Positions 6,881-64,000 of a DNA stretch of 64,000 nt are shown piece after piece (the stretch's first letter is position 1; every line of letters starts with the position of its first letter). Origin of the DNA: Methanobacteriota archaeon (lineage in GTDB: Archaea > Halobacteriota > Methanosarcinia > Methanosarcinales > Methanosarcinaceae); the NCBI GenBank assembly GCA_016841265.1, contig JAENZL010000002.1:1891-65890 (forward strand), read 5' to 3'. The translations under genes and the position numbers were made by a program. The notes under the pieces are model-generated. The model saw only the letters and a program-made list of their open reading frames with translations. It made no database searches and had not been told where the DNA came from.

Positions 6881-6961
6881 AGAATAGTAAATTGGCCTGG
6901 ATGACTGTAATTTGGCTTAAAAATAAATGAAAGGTTATTCGATGAAAAAACGCAATCACCA

Positions 6962-8236
6962 TTAACTTCTTTTAAATATCAGGAGTACGGGAAAGAACAG
7001 GATTATTCCCACTGCAACGTAGACAATTGCGGAGTAGTCCTTCTTCTCTACCTGCGCCTCATTTTCCCCTTCAGAAGCTTGAATCGCTTTTGAAGTAGCT
7101 TCTGATCTCAGGGCATCGTTTGAATCCTTCACATCATTTGAACCCTGGGTTGAACTTTCTGCGGTCTGCACGGTCCTGGTACTCTGCCCGGTTATCGCAA
7201 ACGGGGAAAACCCCTGAGTTTTTGATTCAAAGTAGAGGTACAGGTCATCCTCACCGGTTTGCCAGGTCTCAAGCACTTCCCACCTATAGTCGCTGAAATG
7301 GTTCAGGGTGATAGAGGTAAGGTCAATTTCATTTTCATTGATCCAGGCTCTTTCGACTCTAAAGCCCACAACTCCATTTTCAATATTTTCGGGGGTTGAA
7401 ATCCCGTCCGTACCTACCCAGATGTTCATGTGCTGGTATACCTTGCCTTCCGGTTCGCCCGGGGTCAGGGTGGATTTCCCTTTGAGCATCTCGATTATTG
7501 CGGTGGTTTTCCCAAAGCTTCTTTTGGGGTCAAATTCCACATACCTTATGTCATTCGTGTCCCCTTTAAACGTATATCTGGCCCGGACTCCATTGTTTAT
7601 GAAACATTGGGAAATCTCCTTTAGCTTGACATTCTCTGAGGATTCTGGGGAACCTGCGCCTCCTCCCCCTTCGCCACTTCCGCCTCCTGATATTGTTTCA
7701 GCAGGGGATGTTGAAATATCTCCTACTTTTACATTACCGCCTATAACTGTTACTGGCATTGAGCAGCCGCTTGAATCGCTTACCAACACATTTTTTAGCT
7801 CTAATTTGCATGCTCCGGAGCCGTCGGTTGAACTGAGGTAGACCGTTGCAAGGGTCCCGGGCGTAGTTATCGTATTCTTGCTCAGGATGGAGCCATAAAC
7901 GTCTGTAACGGTACCCTGTGAGTTGTCAGTAGTACCTGGACTGAATATGGTTGTGCTGCCTGTCTGTTTTAATAGGTCTCCTTCCCGGATTTCTTTTACA
8001 TTGACCAGAGAGTTATCAAAAACTAAATCAAGCTGAGCTCCGGATATCGGTGTGTCGGGTTCGACATATATGCTCAGGATGAAGTCCTGATTCTCTCCAA
8101 TTGATTGTGTTTCCGGCGATATGCTTACGATTGTCTCTGCCGCAGCAGTACCCGTAAATACGATGCTCAATGAGACAAATATCAGTAAAATCAGACTTAT
8201 GTGTAATGAATTGTTCTGCAGGCTCTTCCTGTGCAT
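6962..8236 (-). CDS. Surface protein: cohesin domain plus PGF-pre-PGF domain
   Basis: A 424-residue exported protein. A signal peptide (hydrophobic stretch ending AAAE, about residues 10-33) is followed by a cohesin-type beta-sandwich (about 35-170; ISGAQLDLVFDNSLVNV, GTVTDVYGSILSK), a Gly/Ser/Glu-rich linker, a PGF-pre-PGF-like domain (about 200-350; YVEFDPKRSFGKT, FRVERAWINEN), a Ser/Asn-rich stalk and a C-terminal membrane helix ending in KRS. It is therefore surface-anchored with the cohesin outward. Cohesins bind dockerins, and the next gene encodes both a related cohesin and a dockerin. I chose ATG 8236, which has GGGGGT upstream, over GTG 8251. Binding has not been shown. Confidence 0.85.
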   Translation of the reverse strand: MHRKSLQNNSLHISLILLIFVSLSIVFTGTAAAETIVSISPETQSIGENQDFILSIYVEPDTPISGAQLDLVFDNSLVNVKEIREGDLLKQTGSTTIFSPGTTDNSQGTVTDVYGSILSKNTITTPGTLATVYLSSTDGSGACKLELKNVLVSDSSGCSMPVTVIGGNVKVGDISTSPAETISGGGSGEGGGGAGSPESSENVKLKEISQCFINNGVRARYTFKGDTNDIRYVEFDPKRSFGKTTAIIEMLKGKSTLTPGEPEGKVYQHMNIWVGTDGISTPENIENGVVGFRVERAWINENEIDLTSITLNHFSDYRWEVLETWQTGEDDLYLYFESKTQGFSPFAITGQSTRTVQTAESSTQGSNDVKDSNDALRSEATSKAIQASEGENEAQVEKKDYSAIVYVAVGIILFFPVLLIFKRS

Positions 8237-8874
8237 TCGAGTTACCCCCACTCGCTATTCAAGCCAATTCGTTTTACGATCGTTATAACTATCTCAATAT
8301 ACTTTGATCTTTATTTTACACTTTTTATTATAAATTTATTTTGTCTGACGCTGGTATTTTTATATTGAACGAAAGGGGTTGAATAAGGCTGTATTCATGA
8401 AAATACCCGGATCTGCCAGGGAGATAGTGATTATTTGAAAGTTTCTATTTGAAAGTTTCAGGGCAGAGCGATGTATTTTGAGCTTTTTCCCGAAAACTTC
8501 CAGTACCCATGGACAGAATTACGCATGAACAGAATTTATTCATGGGCAGAATCACTCATGAACAGAATTTATTCATCGACAGAGCTAGCATTGCTCTAAT
8601 CAATCCGGTAACCCCTTTTCTGCTATTTCCATTCCCGCTTTTTTATTAGTTGAACAATGTATAAGTAACTTTTTTTATACAGTGCAACCATATATTTATA
8701 AATAAAATAATAATGTCTTAAAAAAGTGATAATATGTCAAAATAGTGATGATGTCAAAAAGTACTAATATGCCAAAAAGCGAGGGATGTCAAAAAGTAAT
8801 AGTTGCCAAAATAGTGAGATATGTTGAAAAAAAGTAATTTTGACGCAGGTTCCCCTCACCTGCGCCAGGTCATT
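8237..8874. other. Intergenic region with two families of degenerate repeats
   Basis: No gene is supported. Imperfect direct repeats of CATGAACAGAATTTATT lie at about 8509-8586. A second series built on ATGTCAAAAAGTGAT-like units runs about 8712-8830. Both are AT-rich. The region lies between two co-oriented surface-protein genes, so it must hold the promoter of the downstream one (6962-8236). Confidence 0.55.
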
Positions 8875-59108: not shown

Positions 59109-60476
<1,368 letters not shown>

Positions 60477-60824: not shown

Positions 60825-61385
60825 TTATTTTTCTTCATCCCCGTGAACCAGACTCGCAAAATAAGCTTCCTCAATGAAATTACATAATTCCAGAACCCGT
60901 GTCTGATGCGTCTCCTCAAGTTTGCGGAACGGGTCATCGTAGAGGGCATCCATCATTTTTCCAACGCTTTCAAGATACCCGAGGGACTTTTCATCCCTCA
61001 TCTTTTTCTTAAGGACTTCCACGGTCACCTTGACTGCGAAAGCTTCATCATTTACGCACTGGTCCCGGAGTTCGTTCAGGGTCCGCGAAATGTCAAGGGC
61101 GGCGAGTTCTCCTTCCCTTCTTTCCCCGGCTTTCTCAGCTTCCATTTTCATTATTTCGATTTTCGTCTCGGCCATTTTTGCTTCATTTTCTATCTGCTGA
61201 TAGCCGGCGGTGTCTTCTCTTTTGATGGATTTGAGCTGGCGGAGGAGTTCGAGGCCTTCCTGGGCTTCTTCCATGTCGGATTGGAGTTCGGCAGCGTCTT
61301 CTGCGGTTTTGGCTTCTGCGCCTCCCGAGGTTTTGCCGCCTATGATGATGGAATCTTTTATTGTGATTGATTTCCGGGATTTCAT
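60825..61385 (-). CDS. Coiled-coil protein with N-terminal DSxI motif
   Basis: A 186-residue soluble protein, unknown function. The first residues are ITIKDSIIIGGKTSGG, echoing VTIKGSVIQRSNL and ILVEDSLIQHSTL in the neighbouring 749-aa protein; I read these as one short beta motif. The rest is helical and charged: DAAELQSDMEEAQEGLELL and AKMAETKIEIMKMEAEKAGE form a coiled coil (about 28-95), then a helical C-terminal domain (LRDQCVNDEAFAVKVTVEVL). It is divergently transcribed from the 749-aa gene, sharing a 148-bp upstream region. Confidence 0.75.
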   Translation of the reverse strand: MKSRKSITIKDSIIIGGKTSGGAEAKTAEDAAELQSDMEEAQEGLELLRQLKSIKREDTAGYQQIENEAKMAETKIEIMKMEAEKAGERREGELAALDISRTLNELRDQCVNDEAFAVKVTVEVLKKKMRDEKSLGYLESVGKMMDALYDDPFRKLEETHQTRVLELCNFIEEAYFASLVHGDEEK

Positions 61386-61533: not shown

Positions 61534-63783
61534 TTGGACTCTCAAATTGAGATTAAGCGTGAAACCGAATTCTACCAGGGTTTTATACGCTTAAAGATGT
61601 CTGTTTCAAACAAAGCTCCTTCTGTAATAACAGACGTCACTCTCGACTTTCTTTTTGAAGACGACCTCCTCCGGATAGACCGTTACGAACCTCATTACGA
61701 AAAAAGGAACGGCAAAATCCTGCTGGGCAACATAAGCGGGGGTACGTCCAAGTCCATAGCCACTTATTTTGACCCCCTGATGTGCTCAAGGGGCGCTGAG
61801 ATCAATTGCCAGCTAACTTCCAGGGACGCCCAGGGCAAGCTCAGTTCTGTTTTCATGGAGCCAAAACTTATCAGCGTGGTCTGCCCGATCATCAAAACCG
61901 ACTTCGACATCAACGTGGGGAGACTCAAAGAGTTCATCGAAAAGCTCCCTAGCAAGGACAGCAAGGTCTATGAGATCCAGCATGGTTTTGACATAGAAAA
62001 ACTCGCCTCAATCGCCCGCGAAGTTGTGGAAAAGCACGACGTTCGCCATGTCCGCACCCTGAAGACAAAAGACAGCAGGGACTGGGAGATCTGGTACTAC
62101 GGGAAAACAAAGGTCACAAAAGCCGACATTGTGATCAAGGTCTCCATTTCCTCCGAAAAGCAGCTCCTCGAACTCTTCGCAGCCACGGAAACCGCCGAAG
62201 CCCTGACTGGCCTCCTTGCGGAAGTCGGGCGCGACCTTAAACACGGAATAGAATTCCGGGCGAGCGGCAAGGGCAATGTCATCAATGTAACAATCAAAGG
62301 TTCTGTTATTCAGAGGAGCAACCTCCTCGACCTCTGCAGCATGGACGGGACCTGCCCCGTTAACATTCTGGTGGAAGACAGCTTAATCCAGCATTCCACC
62401 CTCATCTCCGAAAAGGATGAAGCCAGAGAAGAAAATGAGCGCCTGAGGAAAGAAAGGGAAGAACAGGAGAAACTGCGCAGACAGCAGGAAGAAGAAGCCC
62501 GCTTAAAGAAAGCTGAAGAGGAAAGGTTGCGCAGGGAAAAGGAAATCAAGGGACAGGAAAGGCTCAGGAAACAGCGAGAAGAAGAAAGGAAGAGAAAAGA
62601 AAAAGAAGCCCTTGAAATAAAACAGCGGGAAGCTCAGGAGAGAAAACGCAGAGCAGAAGAGGAAAAAGCCAGAAGGGAAAGGGAAGATCAGGAAAAGCTC
62701 AGGAAGCAAAGGGAAGAAGCTGAAAGGAAGTCCAGGGAAGAACTCGAAAGAAAGAAGCGTGAGGAAGCCGCAAAAGCTCAGGCTTCCCGACAAGCAGTTC
62801 AAAGTCCTGCCCAGCAGAAAGTTCCTCCAAAAAAGCCGTTTTCTTCATCCTCCGCAGCAAAACCGAAGGGCTCTTCTGGAAAGGGAATCCTTGTCTTCAG
62901 CCTCATTTTCGGCATCATACTGATAGGTTCCGTTGCTGCCCTTCTTGGTTCTGACAGCTCTGATGGCAGTCCTCAGGAAACCCAACCTGAGCTTGTAAAC
63001 ACTCCTTCTCAAGCAGTTGAAGAAGATGTTCCCGAAGAAACGTCAAAAACAAATACTGCTCAAACAGCGTCCTCACAAAATTCGGATACCTATACAAACT
63101 CCATAGGCATGGAATTCGTGCTCATTCCTGAGGGTGAATTCAGGATGGGCTCGCCTTCGGATGAGGGCGGAAGATGGGATAATGAAGGCCCGGTTCATAA
63201 AGTCACGATTGAAGAAGCATTCTATCTGGGCAAATTTGAAGTAACCCAGAAACAATGGCGTGAAGTGATGGGCAACGATCCTTCTTATTTCGAAGGTGAT
63301 AATCTTCCCGTTGAACAAGTATCCTGGAATGATGTTCAGGAGTTTATTGATAAGCTCAACGAAATGGAAGGTACAAACAAATACCGTCTTCCTTCCGAAG
63401 CTGAATGGGAATATGCATGTCGTGCCGGGACAACAACAAGATATTACTTTGGAGATGATGAATCAAGTCTGAGTGAGTATGCATGGTGGGATGGTAATTC
63501 AGGAGACAAAACACATTCTGTTGGTCAGAAGAAACCCAATCCCTGGGGACTTTATGACATGCATGGCAATGTCTATGAATGGTGTCAGGATCGTTATCAT
63601 TCAGATTATGACGGTGCTCCTTCCGATGGGAGTGCATGGGAAAGTGGAAGTGGCTCTCTCCGGGTCCTGCGGGGCGGTCGCTGGCTCCTCCACGCCGGGG
63701 ACTGCCGGTCGGCGCTTCGCAGCTTCTACGCCCCTGGCAACCGCCGCGAGTACCTCGGTTTCCGCGTCCTGAGGAAAATGTAA
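61534..63783 (+). CDS. Membrane-anchored SUMF1 protein with coiled coil
   Basis: A 749-residue protein. Residues 1-120: Ig-like beta domain (GFIRLKMSVSNKAPSVITDV); 120-280: alpha/beta domain (FEI-type strands, DVRHVRTLKTKDSRDWEIWY) ending in two DSxI-type strands (NVTIKGSVIQRSN and ILVEDSLIQHST); about 285-425: highly charged Glu/Lys/Arg coiled coil; about 450-473: membrane helix (GILVFSLIFGIILIGSVAAL); then a stalk and an outward SUMF1 domain (about 520-749; FVLIPEGEFRMGSPSDEGGR, FYLGKFEVTQKQWREVMG, GLYDMHGNVYEWCQDRYH). The last 126 bp encode a hypervariable-looking end (RVLRGGRWLLHAGDCRSALR, GFRVLRKM). TTG 61534 is the start; DNA from 63030 to 63650 is AT-rich, then abruptly GC-rich. Confidence 0.85.
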   Translation: MDSQIEIKRETEFYQGFIRLKMSVSNKAPSVITDVTLDFLFEDDLLRIDRYEPHYEKRNGKILLGNISGGTSKSIATYFDPLMCSRGAEINCQLTSRDAQGKLSSVFMEPKLISVVCPIIKTDFDINVGRLKEFIEKLPSKDSKVYEIQHGFDIEKLASIAREVVEKHDVRHVRTLKTKDSRDWEIWYYGKTKVTKADIVIKVSISSEKQLLELFAATETAEALTGLLAEVGRDLKHGIEFRASGKGNVINVTIKGSVIQRSNLLDLCSMDGTCPVNILVEDSLIQHSTLISEKDEAREENERLRKEREEQEKLRRQQEEEARLKKAEEERLRREKEIKGQERLRKQREEERKRKEKEALEIKQREAQERKRRAEEEKARREREDQEKLRKQREEAERKSREELERKKREEAAKAQASRQAVQSPAQQKVPPKKPFSSSSAAKPKGSSGKGILVFSLIFGIILIGSVAALLGSDSSDGSPQETQPELVNTPSQAVEEDVPEETSKTNTAQTASSQNSDTYTNSIGMEFVLIPEGEFRMGSPSDEGGRWDNEGPVHKVTIEEAFYLGKFEVTQKQWREVMGNDPSYFEGDNLPVEQVSWNDVQEFIDKLNEMEGTNKYRLPSEAEWEYACRAGTTTRYYFGDDESSLSEYAWWDGNSGDKTHSVGQKKPNPWGLYDMHGNVYEWCQDRYHSDYDGAPSDGSAWESGSGSLRVLRGGRWLLHAGDCRSALRSFYAPGNRREYLGFRVLRKM
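63655..63780 (+). other. Candidate DGR variable region
   Basis: The 3' end of the SUMF1 gene is abruptly GC-rich. Constant anchors (GGC GGT ... TGG, TGC CGG TCG GCG, CGC, GGT TTC CGC) alternate with codons of the NNC form where family members usually have Asn: CTC CTC CAC, AGC TTC TAC, GGC AAC, TAC CTC. That is what adenine-directed mutagenesis of AAC codons produces in diversity-generating retroelements whose target has this fold. The expected template and reverse transcriptase would lie beyond 64000; neither is visible here. Confidence 0.55.
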
Positions 63784-64000
63784 CTACTTACCACTTTACG
63801 ACTTTACCACTTCACCCCGTAAGTTGGGATGAACCCCGGTGAAGCCCGAAGGCCCGAAGCGTGCGTAAGCCGCCGGGACTGAGGTGCTGAGCCCCGCCAG
63901 AGTCTTTGAAAATTAATAATGTAAACTAACAATACTGAAGCTGGATAAGAAATGCTGAAAATATTTACTGTAAGATATTCGGAAAAAACTGAGAATTTTC
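63784..64000. other. Right-edge non-coding flank
   Basis: A short 9-bp tandem pattern (ACCACTTTACGACTTT) at about 63789-63812 is followed by a GC-rich stretch (about 63830-63895; CCGAAGGCCCGAAGCGTGCG) similar in flavour to 60618-60705, then AT-rich DNA. No gene starts within the window's end. Confidence 0.4.

Follow-up and report, generated by a model that had tools for sequence, protein, structure and literature searches.

A probable archaeal DGR variable repeat beside a deleted cassette in the family of Methanosarcina

Does the GC-rich end of a gene for a probably membrane-anchored protein in a Methanosarcina-family archaeon record the work of a diversity-generating retroelement (DGR), and where would the machinery that wrote it be? 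DGRs are enzyme systems that copy a template (TR) into a target gene with deliberate errors. The window, the whole 64,000-nucleotide stretch analysed here (C24:1891-65890), comes from a genome of 3.65 Mb in 67 contigs (G000, 97.3% complete), whose genus is presumably the sister of Methanosarcina. We consider it very probable that the gene ends in an archaeal DGR variable repeat (VR) whose adjoining cassette was deleted, which was later rewritten in trans, and which is now frozen. The gene and its neighbours are arranged as follows.

59109-60476, plus strand: sister FGE-domain gene, outside the DGR targets and used as an internal control (region equivalent to the VR, 60354-60461)
60825-61385, minus strand: conserved neighbour gene, beginning MKSRKSITIKDSIIIGGK, which fixes synteny with the relative G001
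61534-63783, plus strand: predicted DGR target gene, 749 aa, TTG start (open reading frame with PF03781)
62884-62949, plus strand: likely transmembrane segment of the target, GILVFSLIFGIILIGSVAALLG, read from the translation

The target protein consists of an N-terminal domain, a coiled coil, one transmembrane segment and a C-terminal FGE-sulfatase domain of the C-type-lectin type (residues 527-747; PF03781, E=1.2e-55). Its gene has syntenic relatives in G001 and further relatives in G002, and a gene of similar architecture is found in G044. The GILVFSLIFGIILIGSVAALLG segment is preceded by K/R-rich residues and followed by acidic ones, and these flanks indicate that the FGE domain probably lies outside the cell. 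When the domain was compared with solved structures, its best relatives included PvdO and Treponema denticola TvpA (2y3c, E=7.6e-36), and FGE structures were matched at E~1e-17 to 1e-18. The matches to PF03781 and to FGE structures support predicted homology with the FGE family, catalysis aside, and the domain has a putative role in ligand binding.

GC content is 68% in the final 129 nt of the gene, compared with 44% in the 500 nt ahead, which bears out the abrupt switch from AT-rich to GC-rich DNA described in the original prediction. Across the window, 0.06% of 126-nt stretches were equally GC-rich; inside the target gene 16/708 such stretches reached at least the value of the 3′ end, and therefore GC alone is not diagnostic of a VR. 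NNC codons account for 25 of the last 42 codons (gene mean 29%, maximum elsewhere in the gene 55%), and the constant motifs TGG, TGC CGG TCG GCG and GGT TTC CGC were found among them, again as had been described. An abrupt change in GC might also mark a segment that came in by recombination or horizontal transfer and has nothing to do with DGRs. We regard this as extremely improbable, since it is contradicted by the match to TRs: the aligned TRs and the adjoining scar (see below) explain the composition, the 3′ end being GC-rich because AAC-rich template adenines were replaced.

The match itself was established by alignment to the TRs of another contig of the same genome, C63, and of G001 and G044.

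63649-63773, plus strand: predicted DGR variable repeat, aligned without gaps to all three TRs

Within a core of 36 codons (63661-63768), the window VR differed from the G044 TR at 28 of the 36 template adenines and at 7 of the 72 other sites (P=1.6e-12), so that with this TR as reference the changes are concentrated at template adenines. Compared with the C63 TR, 21/29 template adenines and 16/79 non-adenine sites differed, and with the G001 TR 21/29 and 15/79, respectively; the non-adenine differences were mostly third-position changes. The genome yielded no TR to match the window VR. Because the VR departs from the C63 TR at non-adenine sites as well, we infer its cognate template from relatives and take its own TR to have been lost. 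On this evidence the 3′ end of the 749-aa gene is a predicted DGR variable repeat, set on an FGE/C-type-lectin-fold C-terminus in a Methanosarcina-family archaeon.

When G000 was searched with the VR, contigs C63 and C47 proved to carry related 3′ ends. On C63 an intact, adenine-rich TR lies only ~190 bp past the VR gene, and the pair differs exclusively at TR adenines (16/29 adenines, 0/79 other sites; P=1e-11). Two adjacent TRs in relatives gave a similar picture: 21/29 adenines and 0/79 others for a caspase-FGE VR of G001 (P=3e-16), and 15/36 and 0/72 for the target VR of G044 (P=6e-9). For a KAP-FGE VR of G001 the values were 12/29 and 4/79, so that this pair also has non-adenine differences. 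Differences confined to template adenines are the signature of a DGR, and they are present in the window's own genome. The original reading of the gene as a DGR target thus stands as regards origin but not as regards present machinery, the cassette at the locus having been deleted.

Differences at putative binding residues, as judged from the fold family, could also arise through ordinary positive selection on the exposed positions of a fold resembling lectins, with no retroelement involved. The three VR/TR pairs with no non-adenine differences (0/79, 0/79 and 0/72) contradict such a mechanism, as do the TR copy beside an RT in G044 and the HRDC remnant that adjoins the window VR. The sister gene, rightly proposed earlier as a contrast, provides a good internal control and is almost invariant: 2/36 residues differ from the G001 orthologue in its VR-equivalent region, against 16/36 in the target. 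We therefore give selection alone next to no credence.

In G044 a complete DGR is present, in the order target, HRDC accessory gene, Avd, reverse transcriptase (RT; DGR-type, with IGNLTSQ and YMDD) and TR, and the same pieces (target, HRDC, Avd, RT and TR) were found in G178. The HRDC protein of G044 starts MLKIFTIKYEEKSESFP. To the right of the window VR, two features follow.

63784-63951, plus strand: post-VR spacer, common to relatives with and without the cassette (alignment of G002 and G001)
63952-64000, plus strand: 5′ part of the predicted deletion scar, with the HRDC start codon and first codons (MLKIFTVRYSEKTENFP...), running on past the window to the point of fusion at C24:65979

The scar begins ~170 bp past the VR gene with the open reading frame start MLKIFTVRYSEKTENFP, and an HRDC remnant was detected at C24:65842-65949 (E=1e-5; E=1.3e-7 in a second search). 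At about codon 36 the HRDC frame is fused directly to post-TR sequence, ending ...RLPDEDELSRCLW*, and the RLPDEDELSRCLW part matches the segment that follows the TR in C63. Since both flanks, the HRDC 5′ end and the post-TR segment, are still joined, the remainder of HRDC, Avd, RT and TR are read as deleted beside the window VR. A short stretch, GTGC, is shared at the junction, which suggests that the scar formed by a short-repeat deletion. Of the accessory proteins, only ~36 HRDC codons are left at the locus, and no Avd. A TR and an RT had been expected just right of the window; neither was found in ~14 kb there, where a deleted cassette has left its scar instead. The same HRDC/post-TR junction was observed in the window and in two further species of its genus, G001 (G001_1) and G002 (G002_a), and for this reason the deletion probably predates the split of the three lineages. 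A junction of the same type in G003 is at another locus, which shows that the scar may have arisen repeatedly or moved.

We next consider whether an RT persists elsewhere. The exact TR pattern gave 84 stretches in GTDB contigs, nearly all bacterial with one uncultured archaeon listed, and no match in viral contigs; from the former an RT profile was built with 26 bacterial DGR RTs. In G000, RVT_1 gave nothing at E<=0.001 and the search for DGR RTs nothing at E<=10, and no RT open reading frame was present at the locus of the C63 TR (L018). The proposed search for a template elsewhere in the genome therefore succeeded in part, yielding the intact TR on C63 but neither a DGR RT nor Avd. A missing RT in G000 alone may be an assembly gap, given 97.3% completeness and 67 contigs; however, searches for a DGR RT and for Avd were negative across the four genomes of the genus, including one that is complete in a single contig. 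True DGR RTs were found in 1 of the 112 genomes of the family (G044) and 2 of the 186 of the order (G044 and G178), at profile scores of 424-434 bits (G044, 424), and Avd was convincing only in G044. RT-like matches in other families of the order (~145-177 bits) were not counted as DGR RTs, nor were RVT_1 matches in G001, G002 and G003, which look group II intron-type or retron-like.

Intact TR patterns occur both in genomes with an RT (G044 and G178) and in genomes without one (G000 and G001). Because the C63 and G001 caspase-FGE pairs show 0/79 non-adenine differences, homing at these loci was recent on the time scale over which the genus diverged; either the RT was lost recently, then, or unsampled strains still have one. 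A DGR might still be active, with RT, Avd and TR in the unassembled ~3%, in some strains or in mobile elements, and VRs rewritten in trans. The intact TRs of C63 and G001, identical to their adjacent VRs at 79/79 non-adenine sites, are consistent with this, and for Thiohalocapsa there are reports of targets diversified in trans and of RT loss that varies between strains (PMC10907252). We nonetheless think it unlikely in view of the four genomes lacking DGR RT and Avd and of the window VR lacking a matching TR; moreover, a scan of viral contigs returned one RT relative, at 35% identity.

The VRs that share the scar were then compared with each other. At codon positions 1 and 2, window and G002_a VRs differed at 19/34 adenine sites and 0/38 others (P=1.6e-8). 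Their third positions differed at 2/32 non-adenine VR sites versus 56/195 in the constant domain (P=0.007); no such deficit was seen between window and G001_1 (9/32 versus 75/195), and third-position divergence within the genus is 0.29-0.38. The species-level VR comparison thus fits adenine-directed change. As VRs with a common junction differ mainly at template-adenine sites, the simplest account is that, with the cassette gone, they probably continued to be rewritten in trans by a TR and RT elsewhere. Such later diversification could be mimicked by VRs swapped between targets, and tandem copies and fusions at the locus make it uncertain whether G002_a is a strict orthologue.

The following sequence of events is proposed for the window locus. 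The ancestral order, whole in G044, would have comprised a target with VR, HRDC, Avd, RT, TR and a structured 3′ RNA segment. By analogy with known DGRs, the RT would have made cDNA from TR RNA, erring at random where the template has adenines, and this cDNA would have taken the place of the VR, altering surface residues of the FGE/C-type-lectin domain. A deletion from about HRDC codon 36 to the post-TR segment would then have taken out the adjoining machinery, a TR and RT elsewhere probably kept rewriting the VR in trans, and the RT was presumably later lost from the sequenced genomes, leaving the VR frozen. A different and doubtful proposal is that orphan TRs and VRs constitute a standing substrate, diversifying only when an RT is brought in by another strain, a mobile element or a viral one, or when a non-DGR RT acts on them; if true, diversification would be a shared, intermittent function in these archaea.

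RT-less DGR remnants are already known in bacteria, and the Methanosarcina-family case adds to them. Treponema denticola isolates keep target genes without RT or TR (PMC4891356). That DGR resembles the window in its FGE-type C-type-lectin target (TvpA, 2y3c, matched above) and the cassette of the window's relatives in its HRDC accessory gene; it is bacterial, whereas the window's archaeal relatives carry Avd plus HRDC. Unlike in Treponema denticola, the deletion junctions can be read here, and none of the sampled genomes of the genus yielded an RT of the DGR type. In Thiohalocapsa PB-PSB1, where degenerate loci lack RT or TR and trans diversification best explains the targets, related loci have KAP NTPase targets, as in the window's genus (PMC10907252). 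Thiohalocapsa PB-PSB1 retains an intact DGR in its genome, while no RT was found in G000, and much of the decay there is caused by mobile elements, whereas in the window's lineage it looks like plain deletions at short repeats. The ANME-associated archaeal virus ANMV-1 has a DGR with the TR/VR adenine signature (PMC4372165); it is a virus with its own RT, in contrast to a cellular chromosome with a deleted cassette. In the DGR-linked FGS conflict systems an FGE-type domain is fused to other domains (PMC7159879); relatives of the window likewise fuse FGE to KAP NTPase and caspase, but no effector domain was recognised in the window target.

Our literature search, partial in coverage, returned no report on DGRs or RT-less DGR remnants in Methanosarcina-family methanogens. 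With the present locus, the range of DGR diversification comes to include the family of Methanosarcina, several strains of which are cultured. How a diversity generator is lost can be read here from the junctions of the deletions, from the templates that survive and from targets still carrying the variants last written into them. Reactivation also becomes testable, since an orphan TR/VR pair would be expected to respond once an RT is supplied.

Further degraded loci were identified. On C47, 130 HRDC residues (68% identical to G044) lie behind a KAP_NTPase-FGE gene with a VR and run into sequence that elsewhere precedes the TR. C53 has the TR 3′ end and the post-TR segment alone, several genomes of the genus Methanosarcina (g13) keep only post-TR pieces, and the G083 TR resembles a VR-TR recombinant. 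A weak HRDC match at C10:6124 was rejected as a DGR remnant after reading. The ~20 nt ahead of the TR (R-A-S-G-R stop) were rejected as an RT tail, the listed RTs being without that ending, and are termed only pre-TR sequence. Between tandem targets lies an HRDC 5′ fragment joined to the leader of the next target (L078:10221-14833; L079:7951-11466), an arrangement that points to duplication inside degraded cassettes.

DGR targets of the genus have FGE fused to KAP_NTPase or caspase (L073:3609-6188 and 6957-8720; L019:8706-11228), fusions that resemble proposed bacterial conflict systems. In G000 and G083 an ATPase gene (M[AV]EKVFVVGGEVEPPYFIGRERE...) adjoins the TR/VR locus (L019:6612-7799, minus strand; L074:8747-9934). 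FGE genes on C14 and C21 have VR-like ends (CRSA, GFRV) with drifted third positions (L043:8600-8770; L020:7168 and 7969), and these ends are possibly older frozen VRs.

Finally, the post-TR segment contains a 10-bp helix that is 94% paired in 15 sequences. Its covariation was 0.215, compared with 0.139 in shuffles (0/500) and <=0.087 in slid controls. The fold of the segment by itself is ordinary (z=-1.0), support coming from covariation, and no Rfam family matched it. The helix is retained in the window scar (beyond 64000), where two of its pairs carry changes on both sides. The segment also occurs alone at several sites in two genera (L018:6491-6660; copies in L042, L066, L078, L080 and L083), and the copies on C63 of G000 and C47 of G096 are 93% identical over ~112 nt.
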